DNA of 22,530 bases. Source: a virus. This document shows, in pieces, positions 3,068-21,614 of this stretch (positions are counted from its first letter, which is position 1; each line of letters begins with the position of its first letter). Made by a program: the position numbers and the translations under genes. The notes beneath the pieces were generated by a model. It saw only the letters and a program-made list of their open reading frames with translations, was not told where the DNA came from and did not search any database. The stretch spans positions 1-22,530 of IMG/VR virus record IMGVR_UViG_3300018876_001355; one strand, given 5' to 3'.

Positions 3068-3823
3068 TTATTTTGCATAGTCTGTCTGCCTTAAATACTT
3101 CTCAATCTGTGCTCCGCCATAGTAACACTCGTGCGTGTCACCGTATGGTTGCGAGAGTATTTGATAAAACCCTCTTTCTGCTGCCAGAAGACTTCGCTTC
3201 GAGTGTAACTCTTTGAGTCGTTCTCTGCTCCACAGTTTTCTAGGATGCAGTATCAACGGGTCCATGATATAACCTCCCCAGTCGTTGCTGATGCCGGGGG
3301 ATGGTTTCCATCGGTCTGCCCATAGTTTCGGCACCTCTACCAGACTGTCCAGACTTTTGTGTCTTGAAGTGCGTGTACCAAACCCTATTGCTATGTTCTC
3401 GTTGTAACTCCTTTCTAGGTATTGTGTCAGATCAGCAATCTTTGAGAGTCTAGTGTCGTATCGCATGCGTACAATCATGTCGTAGTCTTCGGGCACCTCA
3501 CCCAGCAGCATGTCATGAGCAAAGATCTGCTTTGATTGATGCCGCATTCGCTCGTATAACATGAAATCTGTTTTGATTCTCTCGCGCAGCGACCATGTCT
3601 TTGCTACGGGCGGCATCACTTCCTCTGGTACATCAGCAAGGGGGTGATACGATATCTTAGGTTCCGGGTGCAGGAAATAATCCTGTGTGTGCTTTCGTAT
3701 GGTTTTCTCTTGATCGTGATACGTTGCATAGAACACATCACCACCAAATTGTTGCTGTGCTATTGCTAGATTTTGTTTTACATCACCACGGGGTATGCCA
3801 GACATGCATATTGCGACTTTCAT
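3068..3823 (-). CDS. Putative glycosyltransferase of the RxRYD family (member 2)
   Basis: A 251-residue protein in a group of four similar proteins in this window. It begins MKVAICMSGIPRG, continues with a DVFYATYHD strand, an EPKISYHPL segment (54-62), then MIVRMRYDT (117-124; R119, R121, D123), and ends with GFYQILSQPY and a Tyr-Gly-Gly-Ala segment. The RMRYD segment sits where a DxD-type motif would be in a GT-A fold, so I infer a glycosyltransferase. No enzyme of known activity comes to mind. The start is settled by GGAGG at 3830-3834, six bases before ATG 3821-3823, which overlaps the upstream stop by one base (TAATG). A longer frame reaching 3919 is discounted for that reason. It is most like the neighbour at 3823-4542. 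Confidence 0.78.
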   Translation of the reverse strand: MKVAICMSGIPRGDVKQNLAIAQQQFGGDVFYATYHDQEKTIRKHTQDYFLHPEPKISYHPLADVPEEVMPPVAKTWSLRERIKTDFMLYERMRHQSKQIFAHDMLLGEVPEDYDMIVRMRYDTRLSKIADLTQYLERSYNENIAIGFGTRTSRHKSLDSLVEVPKLWADRWKPSPGISNDWGGYIMDPLILHPRKLWSRERLKELHSKRSLLAAERGFYQILSQPYGDTHECYYGGAQIEKYLRQTDYAK

Positions 3824-4542
3824 TATATACCTCCGGGAACATGGTGTAAAGTTTTCTGCATATATCTTGTCAACCCTACACCGCCACCATAGTTTTTCCT
3901 GTCCTCTGGATTTGGCCATGGTTCACATAGCACTTGATAAAATCCAAGATTCGCAGGTCTGAGTTCTCTTTTCCTATCGAGTTCTATGGCATGTCCTCTT
4001 CTCATCTTATACTTCGGGTGAATGTTCATGAAGTCAACCATAGATCTCCACATCTTGGCATTGTCTTTTTCTGCCAAATATAACTCGTTGCGGTGGTTCT
4101 TGTTCTTATCTTGACTGCCACCCCAACTACCAAAACTAATCACACGGTCATGCTCGTAACTTTCTTTTATGTGCGATGCCCAGTCATGTGCTTGTCCCAC
4201 TGAAGTGTCATATCGCATGCGAATGATTATGTCATAAGAGTCATCAAGATAGTCACACGCGAGTTGGTGCGCGAGCACCTGTTTGGTCATCCATGGCCAT
4301 GCCTGATTGTGATAATGGTTTTTATAGCAAGAGGGGTGATTTATTCTGAGGTTCTCAGTTTGGTAGCAGTTGTAAGTAATCATGGGTTCTGGAAATACCA
4401 CAGTCTGCACACCTTCAGGTTTGGGTTGTCCCATCCATGTTGTGTATAATACACGATCAGCAAGATCTGTGATGACCTTGTGATCCTTTCTCCATCCATC
4501 AAAGTGACGGTACAATCCTGAATAACAAACTGCTACTTTCAT
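3823..4542 (-). CDS. Putative glycosyltransferase of the RxRYD family (member 1)
   Basis: A 239-residue protein with the N-terminal MKVAVCYSGLYR, a VLYTTW strand (31-36), PEPMITYN (51-58), IIIRMRYDT (105-113; R108, R110, D112), and a C-terminal GFYQVLCEPW followed by NYGGGVGLTRYM. The same landmarks occur in order in the next gene, so these are tandem paralogues. The SGxxR opening and H/TTW strand recall poorly characterised putative glycosyltransferases of phages and surface-polysaccharide loci. The catalytic assignment is inference. ATG 4540-4542 is preferred to the in-frame ATG at 4546-4548 because it makes an exact ATGA overlap with the FkbM gene stop and aligns with the paralogues' MKVA start. 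Confidence 0.78.
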   Translation of the reverse strand: MKVAVCYSGLYRHFDGWRKDHKVITDLADRVLYTTWMGQPKPEGVQTVVFPEPMITYNCYQTENLRINHPSCYKNHYHNQAWPWMTKQVLAHQLACDYLDDSYDIIIRMRYDTSVGQAHDWASHIKESYEHDRVISFGSWGGSQDKNKNHRNELYLAEKDNAKMWRSMVDFMNIHPKYKMRRGHAIELDRKRELRPANLGFYQVLCEPWPNPEDRKNYGGGVGLTRYMQKTLHHVPGGI

Positions 4543-5198
4543 TTCCAAAACTTTATTGTTGCTTCGTGATATTTCTTCTGACCACCAGACACATTGAAAC
4601 CTCTTTTAGACAAGAAGTCATAAGCAACTTCCCAACGATTATCTGTCCCCGTGTAAAGTTCAGTCTTTGCTGCACACTCGATCTCGCCCCTCTTCACTCT
4701 ATCTAGGTACGGTCCCATCCCACGCAACACATTGATGTCGTTGCCTTGTGCATCGCAGTGTAGATACTCAATAGATCCGTTAAAGAATCTCTGTCTAAAA
4801 AAGTTTTCTAGATTCACGGTGTTGACCTTGATGGTCTCGATCATCACAAAGTCATCCCGACCTAACCACTTGTCGTTGATGTCTTCGGGAAACTCATATA
4901 AACTGCTGCACCCGTATGGGTGTACAGGTTTATCGTCGTTCTTGGTCTCTGGATCGCTAATGTGAAAGTCTCTCACCGAATCCTTTTTGTCTACTGCTGC
5001 TTCATAAATGTATACGTCTTTATAATTCTTAAACTTCTCGTCGAGCAAAGGATAAAGATAAGGAACCGGTTCAAAACCAATCACGGGCAGATTAAATCTG
5101 TCTAGGTATCTCTCCGTGTGGAATCCATCACTGACTCCCACCTCCAAGACTATATTGTCAAAGGGAATCACTCGTTTGTCTGTAATAGGTAAGGTCAT
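4539..5198 (-). CDS. FkbM-type SAM-dependent methyltransferase
   Basis: A 219-residue class I methyltransferase of the FkbM family, which usually O-methylates sugars or polyketides. The AdoMet loop is VLEVGVSDGFHT (17-28), followed by GFEPVPY (41-47), which matches the FkbM EPxP strand. ETIKVNTVNLENFF (121-134) and YLHCDAQGNDINVLRG (145-160) match the family's C-terminal pattern, where DxEGxE is more common; here it reads DAQGND. The gene overlaps its neighbours on both sides by 4 bases, within a run of putative glycosyltransferases. By context it most likely methylates a hydroxyl of the glycan made by this operon. A protein or lipid acceptor cannot be excluded. Confidence 0.88.
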   Translation of the reverse strand: MTLPITDKRVIPFDNIVLEVGVSDGFHTERYLDRFNLPVIGFEPVPYLYPLLDEKFKNYKDVYIYEAAVDKKDSVRDFHISDPETKNDDKPVHPYGCSSLYEFPEDINDKWLGRDDFVMIETIKVNTVNLENFFRQRFFNGSIEYLHCDAQGNDINVLRGMGPYLDRVKRGEIECAAKTELYTGTDNRWEVAYDFLSKRGFNVSGGQKKYHEATIKFWK

Positions 5199-5995
5199 AA
5201 TGTTGTGTACGTCTTGTTTTCAGTTTTATATGTCAGATGATATAGTCCGTCCTCAACTTTCCATATGTTCTTCTTTGTCTGTGGGTCCACACCGGATAAA
5301 CAGTTGCGAACTAGGCAGTGGTCTTCATCTCTGTTGAGAATATATCTGACGGGCACTCCACTGTCGTTGACCATTTGCCTTGCAGCAACATGCTGCGGAG
5401 ATCTCATCATGCCGTTCTTCAGATATTTATTAGGCATCAACATCGATGGAGTCAGGTACTGTTGCAACTTGCTGTAGTTGCTGTTCAGTTTTTTGATTGT
5501 CTTGCTGCTACCAAGAAACCACCAGTCGCACAGGTGATGCGTGTTCCACTCTCTAGCACCAGAAACTCCCTCATTTTTCTCTAACCAATTGCTGTGTTGC
5601 ACATACAAATAGTTTGGATCATATGATGAGAAATCAAAGGGAACATGCCAAGCAAGATCAAACCGTGTGAGAAATACTAAGTCATAGTCCTCCTGCAGCA
5701 TGTCAGTGGCAAGTTTTTGTGAGTAAAACCTGCAGTGAGTTCCATAGTATTTTTCAGGAACATTAAATTTAGGTGTGCTCTCAATTACACAATGCTTTGG
5801 TTTATACAACTCCATTGCTTTTGTACTGTAAGGACTCTCCCACGTGTGAAAGTACACATCGTAGTCATCCTTTAAAACACCAAAGTATTTGTAATGATCG
5901 TAGCATATCTGAGGATCAATGTACTCTGCATCAATGTTTTTTGATCTGGTTGATGTCTGACCCACACCACCATACAGTACAAATGCTACTTTCAT
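5195..5995 (-). CDS. Putative glycosyltransferase of the RxRYD family (member 3, divergent)
   Basis: A 266-residue protein with the N-terminal MKVAFVLYGGVGQ, DVYFHTWES (46-54), the LVFLTRFDLAW strand (106-116; R111, D113) and a long C-terminal part with DWWFLGSSKTI. The order strand, HTW, then RF/YD matches the other three family members, but the first Arg of RxRYD is replaced by Thr-110 minus one position, so it is the most divergent. WWFLGSSK resembles the second half of other putative phage glycosyltransferases where an acceptor-side loop follows. The assignment to glycosyltransferases is inference from these motifs and from flanking methyltransferases. The start at 5993-5995 and stop at 5195-5197 both form 4-base overlaps. 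Confidence 0.72.
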   Translation of the reverse strand: MKVAFVLYGGVGQTSTRSKNIDAEYIDPQICYDHYKYFGVLKDDYDVYFHTWESPYSTKAMELYKPKHCVIESTPKFNVPEKYYGTHCRFYSQKLATDMLQEDYDLVFLTRFDLAWHVPFDFSSYDPNYLYVQHSNWLEKNEGVSGAREWNTHHLCDWWFLGSSKTIKKLNSNYSKLQQYLTPSMLMPNKYLKNGMMRSPQHVAARQMVNDSGVPVRYILNRDEDHCLVRNCLSGVDPQTKKNIWKVEDGLYHLTYKTENKTYTTL

Positions 5996-6660
5996 CGGTT
6001 GTCAATGATCCAGAACCTGCGCAGTCCATGCTCCCACCGTTCGTCTTCTACTGCTACCCAATCGTAGCGGTGACCTATATTAGGATTTCCAGACCTACTG
6101 GCATTCAGGTCACTGTCATCATATCTTGTCCAGTTACAATTATTCTGGTCTAGTATCTTCTCAACAAAGGCAGGAGATGGTTTGGTGCCAATGCCGTTCA
6201 CTGCCTGATCGTTTGCGCTTTCTGCCTCTCGAATCTTTATCTCAAAATCTGGATCTAAACTGTCACACACCTCTGTTTCTAAGAACAGCACCTTTGTGTG
6301 TTTTATAGCAGTCTCAAGGTCTCTTTGCCAGTTGTCTAGATGATACAGTACGCCCCAGTGAATTACAAAATCAAATTGTTTTTGAAATGCGTGGTCCCAA
6401 GGTTTGTCTTGGTCTAGCAGCATCAACTCCTGATCTGGGTTGATCTTTGCAAACCCTGCTGGGTGTGTGGGTCTGCCATCAGAGAATGTCATTTTGCAAT
6501 TGAAGCGATCAATGAGTTCTCTGCCGGTATGCCCGTATCCGCATCCCAGTTCCAGTCCGGTTGCGTCCTTAAAAAAGTCTTCACCCATGACAGAGACAAT
6601 CTTTTTAATTCGTGTCTCTCTCCATGGTATATAACCACCCTCGAACTGTGCGGTAGACAT
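5992..6660 (-). CDS. Class I SAM-dependent methyltransferase
   Basis: A 222-residue Rossmann methyltransferase. The AdoMet-binding loop is GLELGCGYGHTG (35-46), an acidic SDG (60-62) follows the second strand, and FDFVIHWGVLYHLDNW is the post-II strand with the YHL segment common in small-molecule methyltransferases. The acceptor is unknown; sugar or nucleotide-sugar methylation is suggested only by context. It differs from the FkbM protein two genes on, so the operon carries two unrelated methyltransferases. The start is ATG 6658-6660, overlapping the upstream stop by one base (TAATG). The frame extends to 6714, but that sequence lies inside the upstream gene and has no family similarity. 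Confidence 0.85.
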   Translation of the reverse strand: MSTAQFEGGYIPWRETRIKKIVSVMGEDFFKDATGLELGCGYGHTGRELIDRFNCKMTFSDGRPTHPAGFAKINPDQELMLLDQDKPWDHAFQKQFDFVIHWGVLYHLDNWQRDLETAIKHTKVLFLETEVCDSLDPDFEIKIREAESANDQAVNGIGTKPSPAFVEKILDQNNCNWTRYDDSDLNASRSGNPNIGHRYDWVAVEDERWEHGLRRFWIIDNR

Positions 6661-8009
6661 TATTTTTTTTCCTTGAGGTAGTATTCTAAATCTTCGGGAG
6701 TTCCTAGTCCCCACATTGCTGCAGCATTACTGACTCGAATTTCTTTACCGTCTTCGATTGCCTCGTTGAATACAGGGCACACATAAAACTCATTGTTTAC
6801 ACGCACATCTTTCTCAATCATCTGCTCTGCATACTTGACAAAGTCAGATCCATGCTTCCAATAGTAATACCCAACGGTTGCACAATCACTAATGGGGTTC
6901 TTCTCTGCCACTTCGGTGACCAATCCAGTTTCATCATCAACACGAGCATATGACCACTTGGGATGCGTTGCCTTGAATGAGACAATGCCACCGTCTGCTT
7001 GTGTTTCTTGCATGTCGTACATAAACTGTACAGGGTCCCAGTCTACCCACTGGTCACTGTTTGCGAAGAATAGTGGCGCATCATTGTCAATGTGTTCTTT
7101 TGCAAGCAATGCAGTGCATGCTGCACCCTCGGTGATACCATCAACCTCTACGATCTTGCAGTTAGGAGCAATCAAAGGCAGCATGTTGTCTAGGTGGAAA
7201 TGCTCTCGGTGTGCCTTCTGGCAGACGAATATAAAGTTTGCTTCAAGTCCAAGATTTTCTACCACCACCTGAATCATAGGTTTACCGTTTACATCGATCA
7301 GTGGTTTGGGGAATGTATACCCCGCTTGTTGGAATCTTGACCCTGCCCCTGCCATGGGTATGAGCACGTTTAGTTTATCGTCTTTCCATTTATTCATAAT
7401 CTCTGACACCTCCAGTTTAGGCATAATATTTTCTTTAGTCACCTCATAGGGATTTTCTACTCTTATATATGATGCCCTAGATCTTGCTGCTGCAAGAAGT
7501 CCCGGCGGTGAGTCTTCCACAATGACAGTCTCTTCTGGTAAGCAATTCATCATGGACATTGCTTTCCAGTATATCTCCGGGTGCGGTTTAGAGTTCTTGA
7601 CATCTTCGTTAGATAATATCACAGAACAATATTCTATTAAACCAGACTTTGCCAGTGCTGTCAAGACAGTTCTACGAATGCTATTAGAACATACCCCAAT
7701 CATGTAACCCTGATTCTCTAACTCTTTGAACAGGTCAAGGGCATGCGTGTTGATGGGGAGATCATGCATCATCTCCACCGTCTTTTTCTGTTTCAGGTCA
7801 AATATTGCTTCGTGTCGATCTACAGGTAGTCCCACCTTCTCGGTGAGCATTTGCAGTTTCTCTTTTGTTTTCCTACCATCGTATATGTTCCGGTGATCTT
7901 CGGGTGAGATTGCATATCTGTCTGTGAGTGCGTAGTTCAGTGCTTCATAGTGTATCTGTTTGGCATCAACCAGCACACCATCAAGATCAAATAGTATCAG
8001 TTTTATCAT
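6660..8009 (-). CDS. Bifunctional HAD phosphatase / sugar nucleotidyltransferase fusion
   Basis: A 449-residue two-domain protein. Residues 1 to about 205 form a HAD hydrolase: FDLDGVLVDA (D8 nucleophile, D10), CSNS (S109), KPHP (K141) and VEDSPPG (E165, D166) give motifs I to IV. Residues from about 212 form a nucleotidyltransferase: IPMAGAGSRF (217-226), FPKPL (233-237, K235) and ANSDQW (316-321, D319) bind NTP, sugar phosphate and metal. Such a protein could dephosphorylate a sugar bisphosphate and then activate the sugar 1-phosphate as an NDP-sugar, as separate enzymes do for heptoses. The actual sugar is inference. It is probably the only donor-activating enzyme in the block. It overlaps its neighbours by 4 bases (upstream) and 1 base (downstream). 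Confidence 0.9.
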   Translation of the reverse strand: MIKLILFDLDGVLVDAKQIHYEALNYALTDRYAISPEDHRNIYDGRKTKEKLQMLTEKVGLPVDRHEAIFDLKQKKTVEMMHDLPINTHALDLFKELENQGYMIGVCSNSIRRTVLTALAKSGLIEYCSVILSNEDVKNSKPHPEIYWKAMSMMNCLPEETVIVEDSPPGLLAAARSRASYIRVENPYEVTKENIMPKLEVSEIMNKWKDDKLNVLIPMAGAGSRFQQAGYTFPKPLIDVNGKPMIQVVVENLGLEANFIFVCQKAHREHFHLDNMLPLIAPNCKIVEVDGITEGAACTALLAKEHIDNDAPLFFANSDQWVDWDPVQFMYDMQETQADGGIVSFKATHPKWSYARVDDETGLVTEVAEKNPISDCATVGYYYWKHGSDFVKYAEQMIEKDVRVNNEFYVCPVFNEAIEDGKEIRVSNAAAMWGLGTPEDLEYYLKEKK

Positions 8010-8461: not shown

Positions 8462-9240
8462 ATCATTTGCATCAGACTAGCGAGGTCTTCTCCTTTATGC
8501 GGTAGTTTGTCTTTTAAGAAAAAGTGTACAAAGTCACATTCGTTAATCTTTGTGTTTGCGGTGAACAACCCGTTGAATTTATAGGGTAGTTTAGTGTGCG
8601 GTATCTTCTGTTTCTTTATCCACCAGTTGAGTAGTGTTTGATCAGTGCTCCACTTCCAAGGACCCACACCATCTACGAATCTTTTGAATTCATATCGATT
8701 GATAAACTGGCGTGGACTGTCACCGTTCAGGTAAGGCAAGAGTCCCTTGTTGAACACCATGACTCCCATGTTCATAAACTCAGCACCGTTGTCGTTCCAT
8801 TTCCAATCAACATCTTTGAGTGTGAGGTATTGCATGCGAGAATAGTTTTGAATCTTGCTGTAGTATGCAGGCGTCAGTGGCATGTCACGCTCAACGCATG
8901 CACCAAAGACAGTCCCCTCTTCCATCGCATCAAATATATTTGCAGAGTTCTGCCTCACGAAAACATCAGCATCAACAACTGCTATCTCGTCATACTCCCC
9001 GAGATGTTTGAATGCGTTTTCTTTCTCATATATTGGGAGGAATCCACCATGCTTCGCAGTTGCCTCCTTACTACGATTTGTCATGAAAGGATCAGGCGCA
9101 ATCCTTAGCAGGGGTTGCCTCTGTATGAAGTGATCGATATGATGCTGCTTACAATACTCAGCAACACTTTCGATGCAGAAATTGTATAGTTTCGATTTAG
9201 CATTTTCGCCCAATGCTACTTGATATATTAGTCTTTTCAT
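8458..9240 (-). CDS. GT8-like glycosyltransferase
   Basis: A 260-residue GT-A glycosyltransferase. IAVVDADVFV (86-95) supplies the metal-binding DxD as D90 and D92, FMNMGVMVFNK (155-165) is the following acceptor-side strand, WSTDQTLLNWW (197-207) holds the DQxxLN motif, and FVHFF near H239 takes the place of the C-terminal metal-binding His. It is a different subgroup from the GT8-like protein at 339-989, with little obvious identity beyond motifs. Donor and acceptor are unknown. Coupled by 4-base overlaps to the RxRYD family gene upstream and the GDPD-like gene downstream. Confidence 0.85.
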   Translation of the reverse strand: MKRLIYQVALGENAKSKLYNFCIESVAEYCKQHHIDHFIQRQPLLRIAPDPFMTNRSKEATAKHGGFLPIYEKENAFKHLGEYDEIAVVDADVFVRQNSANIFDAMEEGTVFGACVERDMPLTPAYYSKIQNYSRMQYLTLKDVDWKWNDNGAEFMNMGVMVFNKGLLPYLNGDSPRQFINRYEFKRFVDGVGPWKWSTDQTLLNWWIKKQKIPHTKLPYKFNGLFTANTKINECDFVHFFLKDKLPHKGEDLASLMQMI

Positions 9241-10070
9241 CCTACGTGTTTCTTCCCTAACATGTGCCGCAGGATTGCAGCACCCCCGTTATAATTTAAA
9301 TGTTTTCTTTCATTTAGGCACAAGACCTGCCACCATGCCCACTCTGCAGCAAGCAACTGCTCAGTTTCGTACCAGTGATTTACAAGTTTAGTGTCAAACC
9401 ACTCCGGTTTAAACATAACAACACAATCTAGCATCCTTTGATACCACATTGGGTTGTCATCTCTTCGGCGTTCTATGTGGAAGATTGATCTTTCAAACTT
9501 TTCTCTTGTCTTCAACCACCTCATAGAGTCATAGGCATCCATCATGCAACCCACTGGTTCATTCCATTTCATCACATAGTCCATGAATCGTTTAAAGTCC
9601 ACGTTGTGCGACAAGAGACAATCCCACCTCACTCTAATATATAGATCCGGTGGTTCACCCTCAAGTCGTAACCTTTCAATCAACCTTGCAGTTGAGATTA
9701 TCTGCAAGTTTCTGGTTATGTGTCCCGGTTGCGGGTACGTGTCTAATGATAGATTGCTGTAACGCGCATGTCTGCTCAGTTGATCTTTCCACTCTGGGGC
9801 ATCAAGATATTTGGGGATGTCTTTGTAAGGATTGTAATGCACTTTTGGCATAGGATCCGTGTGCAGGAATTTCTTAGCATGACGAATGTATTTGTTTTCT
9901 GGTACGAGAGCATTGTGCATTTCCTCTCTATCCCAAGTATGATAGTATACCTTTACATCATAATCATTTGCCTCCACTAATCTTTCATGTATTCTGTAAA
10001 GGCAGTCTGTCAAGTGCCGGTAGTCACATGACGAAGGGTATTGACCAGTTACTAGTACTTCAACTCGCAT
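9237..10070 (-). CDS. Putative glycosyltransferase of the RxRYD family (member 4)
   Basis: A 277-residue protein with MRVEVLVTGQYPSS, DVKVYYHTWD (38-47), PMPKVHYNPYKDIP (73-86) and DLYIRVRWDC (142-151; R146, R148, D150). Near the C-terminus WAWWQVLCLNE is followed by NYNGGAAILRHML. The shared order with members 1 and 2, including the Q-V/I-L then Y-GGA ending, supports common ancestry, although the gene is separated from them by about 4.7 kb. The P-K-V-H-Y-N-P segment matches the PKISYHPL segment of member 2 closely. Glycosyltransferase activity is inferred, not proven by a recognised fold signature. It overlaps the radical SAM gene by 11 bases and the GT8-like gene by 4. Confidence 0.76.
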   Translation of the reverse strand: MRVEVLVTGQYPSSCDYRHLTDCLYRIHERLVEANDYDVKVYYHTWDREEMHNALVPENKYIRHAKKFLHTDPMPKVHYNPYKDIPKYLDAPEWKDQLSRHARYSNLSLDTYPQPGHITRNLQIISTARLIERLRLEGEPPDLYIRVRWDCLLSHNVDFKRFMDYVMKWNEPVGCMMDAYDSMRWLKTREKFERSIFHIERRRDDNPMWYQRMLDCVVMFKPEWFDTKLVNHWYETEQLLAAEWAWWQVLCLNERKHLNYNGGAAILRHMLGKKHVG

Positions 10071-11064
10071 TCTGATAGTCCTTCAAATCAAAATCCGTGC
10101 CGTGCATTTTGTACACGTCTCGATCATGATTTGTCCAGACTAGAATTTCAGGATCGTCCACCAAGAAGTCACAAGATTTACAATAGTCAGGATAATCACC
10201 GCTTCGATGAGCGTCACGGAGCGCAGTGTATTCCACACCGTTCCAAATATCTTCGATAGAGTTTTCTGAGGTGTGCCCGAGGACTGCTTCTTCGTCTCTT
10301 CCGAGGACTTGGCAGCAAGGGTGAACAGCACCTCTTTTACCATCAAGACCACCAGCACGAATGACAACGTCAGGACTAAAAGGTCTGCCACAGGTTTTCT
10401 TCTCCCCTTGCCGTGCGCTCACGGGATCGTAGACCCCAGACCAATTATGCATCTTCCAAATTTCTGTTTTGACTCGTAGTTTCTCTACGATGTTTTTATA
10501 TTGTGTGAGTTCTGATTCCAGCAACACTGGGTCAGTCTCAGTCATGAGATGGTATGTCGCAACTACGCAATCACTCTCAACTTTCTCCACATACTCCTGC
10601 ATTCGTTTGACTTTGTCCCATGTGTTACCAAAGGTTCCGCCTATACGATTATGCATCCACTTTGCATATTTAGTAGGATGAGATCCAATCCAAGAGAATC
10701 TGTAAAAGTCTAGTCCTGCATCGACGCAGTCCATCATGAAGTTGCCCTCCATGCGATACCCGTTCGAGAAAATAAATGCTTTCGCATTGTACTTCTTGAC
10801 AATCTCGATATATTCTGGTAAGTTGCGATTCAGTGTTGCCTCACCACTACCATCAAGATTGACCACGCGGAGACCATGCTGTGCGCAGTCTGCTACATTG
10901 TCTTCAAACTCTCGCAGAGACATCTTTTTGAGGAAGTCTTTGTGTCTACCCCCTGTACGCATGTCTTGTGGACACATAGTACATGAGTAGTTGCATCCCC
11001 CGTTTACTTCTATAACTGCTCTATCGATTTTCAATGAATTTTTCCAAGGGTTCTTTATATGCAT
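10060..11064 (-). CDS. Radical SAM enzyme with SPASM/twitch-type C-terminus
   Basis: A 334-residue radical SAM protein. CNYSCTMC (C24, C28, C31) is the CxxxCxxC motif for the 4Fe-4S cluster that cleaves AdoMet, and DGSGEATL (71-78) is the glycine-rich GGE-like motif. The C-terminal half has CGRPF (C225), HPCCQVLG (C250, C251) and DYCKSCDF (C295, C298), a SPASM or twitch-like arrangement for one or more auxiliary clusters. Members modify peptides, sugars or cofactors. In this context a sugar or sugar-nucleotide reaction such as dehydration, epimerisation or oxidation is a reasonable guess. The ATG at 11062-11064 overlaps the upstream gene by 44 bases, which is unusual; TTG at 11032-11034 is a possible shorter start and still keeps the motif. 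Confidence 0.88.
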   Translation of the reverse strand: MHIKNPWKNSLKIDRAVIEVNGGCNYSCTMCPQDMRTGGRHKDFLKKMSLREFEDNVADCAQHGLRVVNLDGSGEATLNRNLPEYIEIVKKYNAKAFIFSNGYRMEGNFMMDCVDAGLDFYRFSWIGSHPTKYAKWMHNRIGGTFGNTWDKVKRMQEYVEKVESDCVVATYHLMTETDPVLLESELTQYKNIVEKLRVKTEIWKMHNWSGVYDPVSARQGEKKTCGRPFSPDVVIRAGGLDGKRGAVHPCCQVLGRDEEAVLGHTSENSIEDIWNGVEYTALRDAHRSGDYPDYCKSCDFLVDDPEILVWTNHDRDVYKMHGTDFDLKDYQNAS

Positions 11065-15171: not shown

Positions 15172-15837
15172 TTATTTAGATCTCTCCGCTTCAATCCATT
15201 TCTTTGCTTTTGGGTTTGCAGGAGGTTTCTTAGCAAACTTAGATGCCCACTTGTAACCTTTTAAAGTTCCTGCTTTCCAATTTGCTCCATCACTATTATC
15301 TAGGATAATAAAATTCTGCTTGAAAAAACTTTGGAATTTACCAATGTTGTTTTGTACTTGCTTCCAATACTTCTCGACTTCTGCATCAGGCAGAGATCGA
15401 GCACGTGCTCTATTACGCTGCATTGCTGTTTCAAGGTCAGTGTTAACAAAAATCATGGCAGTGTCGTAACCCAACTTTTGTAGTTCTACTGCCTGAGTTC
15501 TGATCTTGTTGTAGTCTTTGCCGGTTCCATCAACAACAATACCTAGTCTCCCTTTCAGGTACAACTCTTGCTTCTTACCTGTCAGTGCTTTTGCACGTCC
15601 ACGTAGTTGCTGTCCTTTATCAGAGAAGATGTTTTCTGGGTCCATCTCTAGACCCGCTTTTTTCATTGCTGTTTCGAAGGCATCGTCGGAGTTCACAACA
15701 CGCATTCCTAATGCCGTGAGTGCAGTCTGACCAACGATGAAAGACTTTCCGCTGCCGGGACCCCCAGCAAGGAATACTGCTTTGAAGATGGCGGGATCGT
15801 TGACCCCTTCTGAAATGAATTGACTAAACTTTAACAT
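15172..15837 (-). CDS. P-loop kinase (zeta-toxin / AAA_33-like)
   Basis: A 221-residue P-loop protein. GGPGSGKS (25-32) is Walker A, NSDDAFE (49-55) follows strand 2 as in zeta-type and polynucleotide-kinase-like enzymes, IVVDGTGKDYNKI (100-112) is the Walker B strand and acceptor loop, and RNRARARSLPD (141-151) is the arginine-rich lid. The first 11 residues (MLKFSQFISEG) resemble a leader seen on several marine T4-like phage proteins. It probably phosphorylates a small molecule, nucleotide or nucleic acid end; the substrate is unknown. No antitoxin partner is nearby, so a toxin role is not supported. It overlaps the GIY-YIG gene by 14 bases. Confidence 0.85.
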   Translation of the reverse strand: MLKFSQFISEGVNDPAIFKAVFLAGGPGSGKSFIVGQTALTALGMRVVNSDDAFETAMKKAGLEMDPENIFSDKGQQLRGRAKALTGKKQELYLKGRLGIVVDGTGKDYNKIRTQAVELQKLGYDTAMIFVNTDLETAMQRNRARARSLPDAEVEKYWKQVQNNIGKFQSFFKQNFIILDNSDGANWKAGTLKGYKWASKFAKKPPANPKAKKWIEAERSK

Positions 15838-16246
15838 GCTTGGAATGTATCTTACACCCTATGAATTCGTTATAATAATCGTCTCTTAGTAGAACGTCAT
15901 TTTCAAATTGAAGTTTTGCCTCGTAGTAAGAACATTCGCCTTTTGAGCGACACAATCTTAATATCACTCTATTATATAGGCTTTCTGCCTCTGCGACTCG
16001 TTCTTTTAACGCCTCACTAGAACCATGGTAGGTTCTCCAATCGCTCTCTACAAGCGTCTTCTTGCGTCTCTTACGGGTTTTAGTGATAGGTAAAGTCTTG
16101 GTCTTCCAAAAAAACTTTTTTCCTATGTACTTCTTCCCTGTAGAAACTTCTTCTATCTCATAGACAAACCCATACCAATCATCGAGGGACTCTGGTTCGA
16201 AGTCTTTTCCCTCATACTGCCACCTGTTCAATTTTATACACCTCAC
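15824..16246 (-). CDS. GIY-YIG nuclease-fold protein (SegE-like family)
   Basis: A 140-residue protein with WYGFVYEI (24-31) and KKYIGKKFFW (38-47), the two strands that give GIY-YIG nucleases their name, followed by DWRTYHGSS (69-77) and a C-terminal NEFIGC that can supply the conserved Asn. The Arg/Lys-rich stretch 54-63 (ITKTRKRRKK) suits DNA contact. Related free-standing proteins occur in T4-like phages, some of them homing endonucleases and others of unknown role. The start is uncertain: GTG 16244-16246 gives 140 residues and a 35-base overlap with the carbamoyltransferase. TTG 16229-16231, preceded by GAGGTG, gives 135 residues and may be the true one. Confidence 0.82.
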   Translation of the reverse strand: MRCIKLNRWQYEGKDFEPESLDDWYGFVYEIEEVSTGKKYIGKKFFWKTKTLPITKTRKRRKKTLVESDWRTYHGSSEALKERVAEAESLYNRVILRLCRSKGECSYYEAKLQFENDVLLRDDYYNEFIGCKIHSKHVKV

Positions 16247-18098
16247 CGTCTTTCACTACAAAAAATGCATCAAGTCCTGTATCTTTCAAGACTTTGTGTG
16301 CATGCTTTATGCTATTTAGGATGGGTTTACCTTGCACATTAAAAGAGGTGTTCAGTAGCACACCGTCCCATTTGGTGAGCAATTCGTAGAAAAACTTATT
16401 GGACTTCTCTGTTACTGTCTGCAATCTAGCAGTGTTGTCAATGTGAGTTATCGCAGGAAATGCCCTTCTAAAGGGTTTCTTAACATCGACAACAAAAGAC
16501 ATTGCTTCCATGTTTTCGAAGTATGGTGACTCGAAATATGTGGAGGCATCTTCTAATCTACAAACTGGAGCAAAAGGTCTGTACCACTCTCTGAACTTCA
16601 CTTTCTCGTTTAGAGTATCTTTCATATCGGAGATAGAAGGGTCGCACAATATAGATCTAAACCCTAGTGCCCTTGGTCCAACTTCCATTTTACCTTGGAT
16701 GAGACCAACAATTTTACCTTTGGATATGTAATCTAAAATTTCATCTTGACTTGACAACACAGGATTATAATTGTCTAATTCATCTAAGTCTATAATATCC
16801 GGACCCTGTACCTTAACCGGTTCTGTGATTTGATCTTTGTTGTAATGATATATCAATCCCATCCCTAGTCCATCATCTGCAGGGTTGGGGGAGACCCACA
16901 CGTTTATTTCAGGAAACTCTTTTTTGATCTCTTCGTTTACCAAAACGTTTAGTGCACACCCGCCGCTCATGAGTAAATTGTTATCGCATCTTTCTATATC
17001 TGTCTTGAACACATTTCGTATTAAAGTCAGCATAGATTCTTGTAAAGTTTTTTGTATGACCCATGCAGTAAATTGGGCAGTGTTGCCTTCTAACTCATGT
17101 GGGATTGGTGACGTTCGATTAAACCAATGCGGCAACATTCCTTCGAAATATTCTCTTCTTCTTTGCCAAGCGGTATTTTTGTTTGTCCTATACTTTTGAG
17201 CAAGAGTGTGAGAGTTAAAATCTTTAAAAGATTGAAAGTCATGAGTATTATAGGTTGGTTCCGCATTCTCAAAAAACATACACATTTTTTTCCATAAGTT
17301 TAATGCGTTAGTAATTTCTTGAGAGTGGGTTTCCTCAAACCGTTTTCCATAAGCAGAGTAACCCATTAACTTACCTGCATTGTCTAAAGGATGAGTGCCC
17401 TTGCTCAATATGCCGGGGAAATATTCGCTGCTAAGGTAAGCATATATTGATCCAAAGTTAAAAGGAAAATTAACATTCTTGAGTATGCTTCCTTTCTTGT
17501 CTATAACATAAAAGTTGAATGCTTGCCAGTCTCCGCCACCATCCCATGTAATTGCTGCAACTGGTCTATCACTTTTACAGAAGGGAGATTGCCAATATGC
17601 GTTGTACGCATGACAGTCATGGTGTAATGCAATGTCAATCTTTCGTTGATGGTTTAGAGGAATGTTGTTTAGGATATACTCGTTTCCCTTTGCTAAAGTG
17701 CTCCAGTCTTGAATCCCATAACCAGACATGCTATTTGCAAATCCAACATATACTTTATCATAGTCATTGTCAATACCAAACCCTTTCTTTATGTACTGGT
17801 GGATTTTTTCGATGCTCTGGGGTATATTTTCGGCAAACCCGTAGTGTTGCTTTTCCAGATATACTGGGTTAAAATCTACATCTAAGTAACCGTCTTCTAT
17901 ATTTTTGACATCGTCAACTCTAGACAGTCCTAATGCCTGCATATTAGTTCTCAGGAATATCCCAGATATACCTTCACAGTGCTTTTTATCTTCGACTGTA
18001 TCTGCTTTTAAAACATGTACGATATTTTTATCGGGTTCGTATATAGTTATTGCAAAATCATGTGCGAAATAGAAGCAGATATGGGGTTTAGTATTCAT
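16212..18098 (-). CDS. O-carbamoyltransferase (NodU/CmcH/TobZ family)
   Basis: A complete 628-residue carbamoyltransferase. These enzymes make carbamoyl-adenylate from carbamoyl phosphate and ATP in a Kae1-like domain and pass the carbamoyl group to a hydroxyl. Visible are HHDCHAYNAYW (159-169), the metal-binding HHxxHA region; TWDGGGDW (184-191); SGGCALN (378-384); DDGLGMG (408-414); EVGPRALGFRS (472-482); RPFAPV (507-512); THIDNTARLQTV (551-562); and LLNTSFN (581-587). Both domains are intact, so activity is likely. Known acceptors are sugars and antibiotics; phage versions have also been reported to act on modified cytosine in DNA. It sits beside nucleotide-metabolism genes rather than in the sugar block. 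It overlaps the upstream gene by 11 bases. Confidence 0.95.
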   Translation of the reverse strand: MNTKPHICFYFAHDFAITIYEPDKNIVHVLKADTVEDKKHCEGISGIFLRTNMQALGLSRVDDVKNIEDGYLDVDFNPVYLEKQHYGFAENIPQSIEKIHQYIKKGFGIDNDYDKVYVGFANSMSGYGIQDWSTLAKGNEYILNNIPLNHQRKIDIALHHDCHAYNAYWQSPFCKSDRPVAAITWDGGGDWQAFNFYVIDKKGSILKNVNFPFNFGSIYAYLSSEYFPGILSKGTHPLDNAGKLMGYSAYGKRFEETHSQEITNALNLWKKMCMFFENAEPTYNTHDFQSFKDFNSHTLAQKYRTNKNTAWQRRREYFEGMLPHWFNRTSPIPHELEGNTAQFTAWVIQKTLQESMLTLIRNVFKTDIERCDNNLLMSGGCALNVLVNEEIKKEFPEINVWVSPNPADDGLGMGLIYHYNKDQITEPVKVQGPDIIDLDELDNYNPVLSSQDEILDYISKGKIVGLIQGKMEVGPRALGFRSILCDPSISDMKDTLNEKVKFREWYRPFAPVCRLEDASTYFESPYFENMEAMSFVVDVKKPFRRAFPAITHIDNTARLQTVTEKSNKFFYELLTKWDGVLLNTSFNVQGKPILNSIKHAHKVLKDTGLDAFFVVKDGEVYKIEQVAV

Positions 18099-19488
18099 AA
18101 CTATTATTGGTGCCTTGTATCAGCACAAGGCAATTGTCTTCCTGTGCTTTTTTTATCATCTCATCTTTAGAGTCGAATTTAATTTCGTATCCAAAAACCA
18201 CGTTCTCTGGTATATCTAGGAATCTTGTAAACAAACAGGAATTAGTAGATTTTAAAACATACAAATCTTTTTTCTTTGTTGGTATGACTACGGATTCGTT
18301 CTCTATAAAAAAAGTAGGGTCTTTCAACTTGTCTGAAGTAGTCAACTCGTATATCTTTTGTTCAGTTTGACATCCTCGATAGCACATAAAACCAGAAAGG
18401 TCAGTGTTGACAAATAAAATTTTTGTGTTACTATTGAACTTATCAAACACTTCTCTTCTGTTATATTTCTGCTGTGCATCTTCGAAGTCGCACGGTTCTC
18501 TTATCGTTATACACTCTCCAATACCCTGATTTTTTTCACCATCAACTGCCATACCATGTGCAACGGTACCGGTAATCAAAGGGATTTTACTGTAATGATT
18601 GTTCAAATCTCTAAAGAGTTTGGGATATTTTGCTGCTTCTCCAGTGAGGATTACAGTATCTAATTGTTTATGTTTTTTAAATTTAAACTCGGAAGTGAAT
18701 AATTCTATAATACACTCGTAAACTGCTTGTCTACCCCAGAAAAGTCTTTCTCTTTCTTGCTCAACATTTTCAAACACTTTCTTTCGTTTTTTATCCGTGT
18801 TGACCCATTCTTGAAGTGGGTTGTGCTGCTTAAAAAAGTTGTTGACCTTCCATTGTAAATAATCAGGTCTGTTTCTGAGCATTGCTTTGAAATTTTTTCT
18901 TCTCTCTTCAACATCCTCTTTGGGTTCTTCTAGTTCTAGGTCTAACACCGCATCTAAATAGTTTTCAGGACTGCAGTTAATTAGTTCTACACACGAATGA
19001 CCCAACCAATACAAAAAAGAAGTATAAAACCCTAACCATGTAGGACTGTACCCTTCTACAAATTCATTGTCTTCAAATTGAGATAGGAATAGATTCTCGA
19101 AGTCTCTGCCCTTTCCCATCGAACATACCAGAGCATTTCTATAGCGTGTTTTGTGGTAAGCAGATAGAGTAAGTGCTTTATGATGTGAAAGGGATGAGGA
19201 GTTTATATAAGACGCAGACAGGGTACGATCTCTAGTTTGTAACCAATTAACCAGTTCTAAAATTTTTCTATCTTTTATGATAAGATCGTTGTTGTATCCC
19301 TTGCTTTCTTTTTTAAAAATAAATTTGCTCGGGAGTTCTATTTTTTTAGAACCATATGCTTCTATTATATCCGCAATTCTTACGACATCAGACATTTCAA
19401 TGTAATCTTGTGTGACAGTGTCATATTGACAAAAGTGGTATTTGGAATCTTTATAGATGCTCCATACAATAGGTTTATATTCCTTCAT
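18088..19488 (-). CDS. Divergent carbamoyltransferase-like (ASKHA-fold) protein, probably lacking canonical activity
   Basis: A 466-residue protein of no family I can name outright. SLSHHKALTLSAY (99-111) followed by ALVCSMGKGRD (119-129), and WLGFYTSFLYWLG (151-163), line up with the N-terminal carbamoyltransferase pattern (HHxAHAxSAY, ALVLTxDGxG, GxxYS). VILTGEAAKYP (279-289), then TGTVAHGMAVDGEKNQG, sits where SGGxALN and DDGxGxG would be. The second His of HHxxHA is lost (KALTL), the DG is MG, and the GPRALG, NTSFN and RPFAP motifs of the C-terminal domain are missing. I infer a paralogue that has lost or changed activity and may partner the intact enzyme next to it. The DNA is visibly AT-rich here. 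The start at 19486-19488 overlaps the zinc-ribbon gene by 14 bases. Confidence 0.7.
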   Translation of the reverse strand: MKEYKPIVWSIYKDSKYHFCQYDTVTQDYIEMSDVVRIADIIEAYGSKKIELPSKFIFKKESKGYNNDLIIKDRKILELVNWLQTRDRTLSASYINSSSLSHHKALTLSAYHKTRYRNALVCSMGKGRDFENLFLSQFEDNEFVEGYSPTWLGFYTSFLYWLGHSCVELINCSPENYLDAVLDLELEEPKEDVEERRKNFKAMLRNRPDYLQWKVNNFFKQHNPLQEWVNTDKKRKKVFENVEQERERLFWGRQAVYECIIELFTSEFKFKKHKQLDTVILTGEAAKYPKLFRDLNNHYSKIPLITGTVAHGMAVDGEKNQGIGECITIREPCDFEDAQQKYNRREVFDKFNSNTKILFVNTDLSGFMCYRGCQTEQKIYELTTSDKLKDPTFFIENESVVIPTKKKDLYVLKSTNSCLFTRFLDIPENVVFGYEIKFDSKDEMIKKAQEDNCLVLIQGTNNSYEY

Positions 19489-19624
19489 CCGTTAGTAACC
19501 ACTCTTCATTAACATCCTCACCACACATAGGACAGTAACAAGGTAGTTCATCTAATTCATGAACTACCAAGTCTAACACTGTCTCACAAGATACACATTC
19601 TAAATGGTACTTATATTCATCCAT
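19475..19624 (-). CDS. Small zinc-ribbon protein (49 residues)
   Basis: The frame starts at ATG 19622-19624, directly after the TAA of the reductase gene with no gap, and ends with TAA at 19475-19477. The product has two CxxC knuckles, CVSC (C10, C13) and CPMC (C31, C34), spaced 17 residues apart, as in a rubredoxin-like zinc ribbon. The rest is acidic (MDEYKYHLE at the start, EDVNEEWLLTDEG at the end). The family is not identified. Direct adjacency to the reductase suggests joint translation; whether it helps that enzyme, for example as a redox partner, or regulates a neighbour is open. Confidence 0.78.
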   Translation of the reverse strand: MDEYKYHLECVSCETVLDLVVHELDELPCYCPMCGEDVNEEWLLTDEGI

Positions 19625-21547
19625 TTATTGTATCTCGCAGAAACCTGAAGCACAGGCGAGTTCTTGACTACCAATCGTCATGTCACTTGCTTCATATTCT
19701 GCGAGTTTAGACCAGTCCACTTCCTTTGGCATTTTAGCAAGCAACTCCTTGTAACCCGCTTCGTCAGTATCTTGATACGGTGCTTGTGCATACGTATGAT
19801 CAGAGAATGGTAGGAATGACACACCACTCATATAATCAAAATGCTCGTATACCCATGCACCAACATCTAACCACTCGTGTTCTTTCACGGATACAGTGAT
19901 TGATGGTTTGTGTTCACACCAGTGCTTCTGATAGACCAACCACATTTCTAACTGTTCAATAGCAGTCATATCTGTGCGGAAGATTGCACCCTTGTCTACT
20001 TTCATTGGAAACGAGAACACAGACGTGTGTGAGGGATTCATCTGGTCATCTTCAACGGGAAACCCTTGATCAACCATCATCTGAGTGAGAGGGTCTTTCT
20101 TGTCACCACGTACAGTACGAATATAGTATGGGTTATGTCGAGCATGAATACCACTGGCAGCATCAACCAACTGAGACACGGTACCAGAAGGTTTAACGCA
20201 AGTGATAGCAACTGACTGGTTGATACCCAGTTTCTTTGCCATATCTGCGTTGGTTTTCACGGCAACGGACTTCAAGTGTTCTAGTCGTTCAGAAAGATCA
20301 TTGGACTTCTTGCCATTGGTCAATGGGTTGTCCATAATACCTGTCATTGAAACCCCTAGCAGGCGTTCCTCTTCGCAGTTCTTACGCCAAGAACTGCCAA
20401 TGTACTTGAAGTTTACCAAACTGCTCTGGAAAGTACCTAGAATCGTTGCTAGGCGCACTTTCTCTTCTAGGTCTTCCCATGAGTCACCGGGACGCACCAC
20501 AACCTCAGAGAGATTACAGAACTCACGAGAGCGTAAGATGATCTCAGAACATGGGTTAGTGCCAAACTCATGATCACCGACTTCCCTACGACCCGATGCA
20601 GTTGCCATCATGTTAGCAGATGCACGGTTGAAGATACCACGCTCACCAGACTTTGAGTCGTACAGTGCCTTCCACTCATCCATGAAGATACCGATGTCTG
20701 GTTTCTCAGTGTAGCAAGCAGAGTTGTTAGCAAGTGCGCGTTGCCCGTGATCGTTCCACCACTGCCCTGCCTTGGCATGACGCATGCGATCATCTGATAG
20801 GTTTGACAACGAGATCAGTGCAGAACGGCGTACACCACCCACCACAACAATCTCTGCGATCTTACAGACGATATCGTGACACTCAACTGAATTAAGTTTG
20901 CGTCCAGCAGCATTCTTAAATGTTTGAACACAGAAGAGAAATAACTGATTGAGAGGTTCTGGACCTGATGCACGTCCCCCAAAGGTCTTGAGGGGTGCAC
21001 CAGCAGGACGCACTTTGGTCAAGTCCCACTTGGGTACCTGCCCTGCGTATAACAAACCAACCAACTCTTTCATTGCCTTTGCCCAACCCAACTTGGAATC
21101 GGCAACCATGATTGTTGTATCTGTATCATGGAATTCTTCAGCAACTACGGGCATCTGAGAAATGAACTGGCGTTCTACGGAAAACCCCACACCCGTGCCA
21201 TTCATGAGTACATAGAGGATCTCATCGAATGCTTGTGGGCGATCTACTGCAACATAGGAACAATTATATCCAGCAATATTCTCACGCTTCAGTGCTTCAC
21301 CCGCAGTCATCAGACAACGCATCGAGGGCATGACCTTCTGAGCAAGCACTGCTTCCTCTAACTCACCTCTGAGTTTAGCAGGCAACTTGTAGTCGCAGGT
21401 TTCTTCGAGGTGCTCTGTAAAAAAGTCAAAGTACCTAGCAATTGTTTCTTCCCACGTTTCTCTGCGTCCTTGATCAGGCAACCATCGTGAATAACGGGAC
21501 AGGTGGATAAATTCTTGGTAACTCGTGGGTAAAAAATTGCTGGGCAT
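19625..21547 (-). CDS. nrdJ: Class II (adenosylcobalamin-dependent) ribonucleoside-triphosphate reductase
   Basis: A 640-residue monomeric-type reductase that converts NTPs to dNTPs by a cobalamin-generated thiyl radical. NPCSEI (331-336) holds the radical cysteine C333 with Asn and Glu of the active site, FCNLSEV has C344 eleven residues on, and GYNCSYV has C96; these correspond to C408, C419 and C119 of the Lactobacillus leichmannii enzyme. The C-terminal ELACASGFCEIQ carries the redox pair C632 and C637. It is shorter than the 739-residue Lactobacillus protein. AGGAGG at 21557-21562, nine bases before ATG 21545-21547, fixes the start; an ATG at 21565 would place that site inside the coding region. 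It supplies dNTPs for phage replication and depends on host or environmental B12. Confidence 0.95.
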   Translation of the reverse strand: MPSNFLPTSYQEFIHLSRYSRWLPDQGRRETWEETIARYFDFFTEHLEETCDYKLPAKLRGELEEAVLAQKVMPSMRCLMTAGEALKRENIAGYNCSYVAVDRPQAFDEILYVLMNGTGVGFSVERQFISQMPVVAEEFHDTDTTIMVADSKLGWAKAMKELVGLLYAGQVPKWDLTKVRPAGAPLKTFGGRASGPEPLNQLFLFCVQTFKNAAGRKLNSVECHDIVCKIAEIVVVGGVRRSALISLSNLSDDRMRHAKAGQWWNDHGQRALANNSACYTEKPDIGIFMDEWKALYDSKSGERGIFNRASANMMATASGRREVGDHEFGTNPCSEIILRSREFCNLSEVVVRPGDSWEDLEEKVRLATILGTFQSSLVNFKYIGSSWRKNCEEERLLGVSMTGIMDNPLTNGKKSNDLSERLEHLKSVAVKTNADMAKKLGINQSVAITCVKPSGTVSQLVDAASGIHARHNPYYIRTVRGDKKDPLTQMMVDQGFPVEDDQMNPSHTSVFSFPMKVDKGAIFRTDMTAIEQLEMWLVYQKHWCEHKPSITVSVKEHEWLDVGAWVYEHFDYMSGVSFLPFSDHTYAQAPYQDTDEAGYKELLAKMPKEVDWSKLAEYEASDMTIGSQELACASGFCEIQ

Positions 21548-21556
21548 AGAAATGCG

Positions 21557-21562
21557 CCTCCT
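21557..21562 (-). promoter_or_regulatory. Shine-Dalgarno site deciding the nrdJ start
   Basis: AGGAGG on the minus strand, followed by CGCATTTCT and ATG. Its position downstream of the ATG at 21565 argues that translation begins at 21547. Confidence 0.75.
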
Positions 21563-21614
21563 CATCTCTTCAAGGGGTTTTTTTAATCGGTGGAAATAAT
21601 ATATATGGTTTTTG
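21563..21614 (-). promoter_or_regulatory. AT-rich intergenic stretch upstream of nrdJ, possible promoter
   Basis: The 67-base space between the SDR-like stop and nrdJ is the longest non-coding stretch in the window. On the minus strand it contains CATATATATTATTTCC, similar to but not identical with the T4-type late promoter TATAAATA, and a run of seven A before CCCC. I see no stable hairpin. A phage promoter here would fit the strong ribosome site that follows, but support is weak. Confidence 0.3.

Follow-up and report, generated by a model that had tools for sequence, protein, structure and literature searches.

We analyzed a 22,530-nucleotide stretch of viral DNA (IMG/VR record IMGVR_UViG_3300018876_001355, positions 1 to 22,530; hereafter, the window), in which two overlapping genes encode a 466-amino-acid protein (PT) and, downstream, a 628-amino-acid protein (CT). 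The IMG sample numbers of near-identical contigs suggest that the phage is from a salt marsh. By its sequence, CT is a class III carbamoyltransferase (CTase) of the TobZ/GdmN type with every catalytic residue. PT is almost certainly a homolog of the class III CTases that is catalytically dead. Alignments and a tree place the two on different lines of descent within the CTase family. Our preferred but tentative reading, by analogy, is that PT is a non-catalytic partner subunit of CT, a pseudo-enzyme assisting it as TsaB assists TsaD.

CT matched both Pfam families of this enzyme class (PF16861, 1e-52; PF02543, 2e-26), with the Kae1-like N domain and the YrdC-like C domain both present. It also matched phrog_1601 (3e-97) and the PDB chains of TobZ, VtdB, NovN and GdmN. 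In an alignment of 91 rows, it deviated at none of the 22 signature positions conserved in the family, and the enzyme is intact, as the initial annotation had stated. In GdmN, the general base is H27 and the metal ligands are H133, H137, D156 and D333 (PMC9633730). The equivalents in CT are H13 for the general base and H159, H163, D186 and D408 for the metal. The YrdC-like domain would form carbamoyl-adenylate from carbamoyl phosphate and ATP, and the Kae1-like domain would transfer its carbamoyl moiety to a hydroxyl of the acceptor. The C-terminal dimerization domain of about 100 residues found in GdmN was absent from CT, which ends 14 residues past the PF16861 match.

The relationship of PT to CTases was hidden. 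With PT alone as the query, neither Pfam, PHROG and PDB-sequence searches nor those of phages and plasmids found a match, a scan of bacterial and archaeal genomes gave no match, and BLASTP of PT against CT was not significant (E 0.2). With a family hidden Markov model of 90 mixed phage CTases, PT could not be told from shuffled sequences (it ranked second of about 1,000), because the close intermediate was missing from the model. The link came solely from scanning IMG/VR with nrdJ, which gave 80 loci, and inspecting the nrdJ neighborhood (compared loci are designated by L-numbers). The intermediate, a 572-amino-acid CTase, lay in the slot between nrdJ and a SegE-like gene of sister phages; phmmer matched PT to this protein in L097 with an E value of 4e-11, and to a protein of L119 with 1e-25. 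By hhalign, PT matched a CTase profile with a probability of 93 (E 3e-7) and a score of 60.6, against 32 for the best of 40 shuffled PT sequences; the probability was 98.5 for L119 and 98.3 for PT and L119 together. Residues 1–316 of PT aligned globally to CTase profiles with a z score of 9.9. These results bear out the N-terminal ASKHA pattern that had been noticed initially. For phage annotators they are a caution, as strongly diverged CTase-derived genes without a family model are invisible to Pfam and PHROGs.

The C-terminal part of PT is another matter. Residues 320–466 gave a z score of 0.0 against the CTase C-domain profile and did not match the C-terminal part of L119 either, while the latter still resembled the C domain (z 5.3). 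A truncation of CT at the domain border, considered for a chance match at LIQG, was ruled out as the origin of PT, since the C-terminal part of PT matches neither CT nor L119.

An AlphaFold2 model of PT made from 30 sequences had a predicted template modeling score of 0.52. Its predicted local distance difference test values were mostly 70–88 over the ASKHA core and low elsewhere, mostly under 45 in the C-terminal region. Fold prediction had been proposed initially as a check, and the 15 best VIA matches of the model were class III CTases (Z 12–14), followed by TsaD, Kae1 and Qri7 (Z about 11); the match is partly circular because CTases were included in the model alignment.

By alignment, PT has Lys in place of the general-base His, Leu in place of H163 of CT and Gly in place of D186, it has no counterpart of D408, and GG has become GE; one of the four metal ligands (H102) was kept. 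PT had none of the C-domain signatures of CTases and no YrdC-like Pfam match. Because the general base is a Lys, three of the four metal ligands are lost and the YrdC domain is missing or unrecognizable, PT is predicted to be unable to do carbamoyl-transfer chemistry. The initial annotation was right that key residues and the C-terminal signature set are lacking. Coordinates of the features are listed in Table 1.

Table 1. Features of the nrdJ–segE region of the window, and the comparable tandem pair in other phages
Feature	Position	Strand	Remark
PT, 466-aa catalytically dead CTase homolog (predicted)	18088..19488	-	Kae1-like ASKHA domain 1-316; C-terminal 150 residues unrecognizable
CT, 628-aa intact class III O-carbamoyltransferase (predicted)	16212..18098	-	Kae1-like and YrdC-like domains
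Overlap of PT end and CT start, 11 bases (ATGAATACTAA)	18088..18098	-	fits translational coupling
nrdJ, B12-dependent ribonucleotide reductase	19625..21565	-	upstream border of the variable slot
SegE-like GIY-YIG endonuclease	15824..16246	-	downstream border of the slot; 35-base overlap with CT
10-pair hairpin in the nrdJ–PT gap	19542..19568	-	terminator-like, marks cassette start; pattern match only
CT residues 159-163 (HHDCH)	17610..17624	-	contains metal ligands H159 and H163
CT residues 474-479 (GPRALG)	16662..16679	-	YrdC-like domain; G479 and R481 of canonical type, unlike the 5-hydroxymethyldeoxycytidine enzyme
PT residues 102-106 (HHKAL)	19171..19185	-	remnant of the metal-binding HHxxH motif; final His is Leu
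PT residues 208-235 (PDYLQWKVNNFFKQHNPLQEWVNTDKKR)	18784..18867	-	block most conserved with dead homolog L119; near the position of GdmN inter-subunit loop 4' (PMC9633730)
L061/L062 tandem pair	IMG/VR 3300013014_001806, 3300013006_001981		

On the minus strand, from high to low coordinates, the gene order is nrdJ, the hairpin, PT, CT, the SegE-type gene, a kinase-like gene, DUF6433, GT25, PhoH, lysozyme and a sugar-gene cluster. The overlap of PT and CT was described correctly in the initial annotation. A short inverted repeat lies close to the end of PT (18111–18132, minus strand), 13 bases ahead of the start codon of CT; it could affect how translation of CT is coupled to PT.

The nrdJ–segE slot is a hot spot. 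Across the window (16212–19625) and loci L096–L127 it was found in four states: empty, with a lone live CTase and two genes, with a lone dead CTase, or with a dead and a live one. It was empty, with segE directly after nrdJ, in most of the close sister loci. L096 and L097 carried the intact 572-amino-acid CTase there, L119 carried a 542-amino-acid dead homolog, and the window carried both kinds. The nrdJ genes of phages with differing slot states were 83–95% identical. Since live, dead and both-present states occur in sister phages, the order of events can be read.

PT is not a recent duplicate of CT. The N domain of PT aligned with the L096 CTase at a z score of 14.9 and with its neighbor CT at 0.5. 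In the tree, PT joined L119 (SH-aLRT support 96; the long branches call for caution), L096 was placed beside them (80), and CT joined the CTase of L016 (97), apart from the PT group. The z scores and the tree together rule out PT as a tandem duplicate of CT.

The state of the slot and the affinity of PT to the L096 CTase could also be explained if PT were the older resident, an L096-type CTase in decay, and CT a later replacement; their adjacency would then be incidental, owing to the high traffic at this insertion site, and PT would have no role. The lack of any sign of purifying selection between the dead genes of L119 and L176, a near-identical copy of L119, fits this explanation. We nevertheless think it unlikely. 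About 75% of the residues of PT differ from those of its relatives, yet its frame of 466 codons is still open, and in simulations of neutral change at 0.1 substitutions per site, none of 300 runs kept a stop-free frame. Because the frame is intact despite such high divergence, PT was probably under protein-level selection for most of its history. In addition, a block of PT is more conserved with L119 than with the live enzyme (at residues 211–240, 18 of 30 residues are identical to L119 and 9 of 30 to the intact L096 CTase), and an unrelated phage, L061, has the same dead-before-live order. The copies of PT in the window and in the near-identical locus L001 are identical and uninformative on selection.

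In L061 (4062–7632; also in L062), a full-length 594-amino-acid CTase homolog lies 22 bp upstream of an intact CTase. It is altered at 11 of the 22 key positions and is 43% identical to its intact neighbor. This pair is independent of the pair in the window. The same order in an independent phage hints at a two-part enzyme without proving it.

Other phages carry further arrangements of CTase genes. L043 (3124–7315) has three in tandem, preceded by GT25, O-FucT-like and methyltransferase genes; the first two are N-domain-only with the Kae1-like catalytic residues kept, and the third is complete. L088 and L094 each have two intact tandem copies. The isolated Synechococcus phage S-SCSM1 (L187:1683–5265) has four genes in the order C-N-C-N immediately downstream of an annotated thymidylate synthase gene; they are two split CTases whose motifs are conserved. 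Given the separate Kae1-like and YrdC-like genes of S-SCSM1, a functional split in the CTase family is plausible. A 327-amino-acid protein is encoded at 9712–10695 of L096, in the same operon as the intact CTase. Its residues 96–180 matched ASKHA lobe 2 (z 4.7, a level reached by 1 of 150 shuffles; phrog_1601, E 0.006), a C-domain signal was absent and the model was poor. With the lobe 2 match weak, its candidacy as a further dead CTase is only suggestive.

The overlap of the two genes and the independent dead-before-live order in L061 both argue for PT as a partner of CT. PT would be translated just ahead of CT and retained as a non-catalytic subunit that binds CT and shapes or regulates acceptor binding, and would assist it in the manner of inactive TsaB with TsaD; TsaB is a precedent for an inactive paralog (PMC9654439). 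The conserved block of PT aligns, in the family alignment, near GdmN residues 238–246, a loop that enters the active site of the partner (PMC9633730). PT residues 208–235 would thus lie where GdmN sends a loop into its partner.

Several observations weigh against a partner role. The exact pair was observed in one phage type only, on two contigs (the window and L001). L119 (7331–8959) and L176 (190–1818) carry the dead homolog without an adjacent CTase, on contigs of 12.5 and 4.5 kb, and L096 and L097 have a related intact CTase without PT. The dead genes of L119 and L176 differ at 8 nonsynonymous codons and 1 synonymous codon, compared with 13 and 38 in the flanking genes (Fisher p 0.0006), and this dead copy may be drifting and looks unconstrained. 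The comparison of the PT block with loop 4' of GdmN relies on alignment in a poorly conserved region, and the structural match has the circularity described above. As PT and CT are not sister copies, the pair did not arise together as subunits. Loci L016–L095, which include L061, were chosen for an intact CTase, so that dead copies next to live ones are overrepresented. A heteromeric complex or a new activity had been suggested in the initial annotation: the complex is still the best reading and is helped by the L061 pair, but conservation of the pair was found only in part, with the exact combination confined to the window and L001, a relative of PT alone in L119/L176, a related intact CTase alone in L096/L097, and a tandem of its own in L061.

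The occurrence of the dead relative in L119 and L176 with no CTase beside it would also fit PT as an ASKHA protein that acts on its own, in a new role such as nucleotide binding, regulation or counter-defense, and does not need CT. PilM, ParM and FtsA were among the ASKHA fold matches of PT, and non-catalytic ASKHA proteins with other jobs exist. The 11-base overlap, however, couples PT to CT in the window, and the L119 and L176 contigs are fragments, so that a CTase elsewhere in those genomes is possible. We regard a stand-alone role as unlikely; together with decay it is the chief rival of the partner role.

A partner role for PT would have a wider counterpart: phages may repeatedly have built heteromeric CTases with a dead Kae1-like subunit that is translated shortly before its live partner and that holds the acceptor or selects it. 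We consider this generalization rather doubtful. If true, a dead acceptor-selecting subunit would let new substrates be reached with the catalytic subunit unchanged.

The acceptor of CT might be a DNA base or a glycan, both of which had been proposed initially. A phage-borne carbamoyltransferase of 5-hydroxymethyldeoxycytidine (5hmdC) is proven, and it co-occurs with a hydroxymethylase of the thymidylate-synthase family (PMC8670742). CT, with PT as an accessory, could likewise carbamoylate hydroxymethylcytosine, either in phage DNA or in nucleotides. Ribonucleotide reductase genes border the slot, and the CTase of L016 is flanked by a glutaredoxin-like gene and nrdB. The search for a hydroxymethylase gene was negative: the thymidylate-synthase family PF00303 was found in none of 18 related records (the 22.5-kb window and 17 others, several >100 kb; the genome of this phage is incomplete). 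At the positions corresponding to TobZ W408, G421 and R423, the 5hmdC enzyme has I, C and T (PMC8670742) and CT has L466, G479 and R481, that is, Gly and Arg instead of Cys and Thr at the two discriminating GPRALx positions. The tree places CT in a different clade from the characterized 5hmdC enzyme. DNA-base carbamoylation by CT is not supported, and we judge it very improbable.

A glycan hydroxyl is somewhat likelier as the acceptor than a DNA base; it is weakly favored and unproven. The window has several GT25 and GT8 genes, methyltransferases and a nucleotidyltransferase among its sugar genes, and several related phage CTases sit in sugar operons. In L096, the CTase gene overlaps one whose homolog lies in the sugar cluster of the window (the 9237–10070 protein; E 4e-16). 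Against a glycan, the nearest relative of CT, which occupies a similar slot in L016, has no sugar gene nearby; the order there is glutaredoxin-like gene, CTase, nrdB, SegE, DUF6433 and PhoH (gene names read off translations).

The sugar cluster has some other features, all on the minus strand. One gene (6660–8009) fuses a HAD-type phosphatase with a nucleotidyltransferase domain, and another (10060–11064) encodes a radical SAM/SPASM protein. The proteins at 3068–3919, 3823–4548 and 5195–5995 match phrog_13607, a family of unknown function, one of them weakly, and form a paralogous set (3068–5995). The 9237–10070 protein, whose homolog follows the L096 CTase, has no phrog_13607 match.

The class III CTases described in the papers cited here are monomers, such as TobZ, or homodimers, such as GdmN; the overlapping live–dead pair differs from both and offers a small, testable case of a pseudo-enzyme partner. 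Like TobZ, GdmN, VtdB and NovN (PF02543 and PF16861), CT has both domains, with the general-base His, an HHxxH...D...D metal site and YrdC-like motifs. By its Kae1-like fold and its descent PT belongs with them, but it has neither the catalytic residues nor a recognizable YrdC-like domain. The 5-hydroxymethylcytosine carbamoyltransferase of the MetaGPA study (PMC8670742) is, like CT, phage-borne, of the same superfamily and conserved in its catalytic residues; it differs in clade and at TobZ positions 408, 421 and 423, and its thymidylate-synthase-type partner is absent from the records of the relatives of this phage.

Among paired systems, S-SCSM1 also has separate tandem genes for CTase parts, but these are complementary halves with motifs kept, include no dead copy and follow a thymidylate synthase gene. 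L061 and L062, also from a phage, have a dead CTase homolog immediately before an intact one. Unlike PT, their dead copy has its full length, retains the YrdC-like domain in its sequence and is of independent origin. In TsaD–TsaB of bacterial N6-threonylcarbamoyladenosine synthesis, a live ASKHA carbamoyl-transfer subunit likewise stands beside a dead ASKHA paralog that has lost its metal/nucleotide site. The families and the substrate are different, PT is not TsaB itself and has a long unrecognized C-terminal part, and the pair described here is known from its genes.

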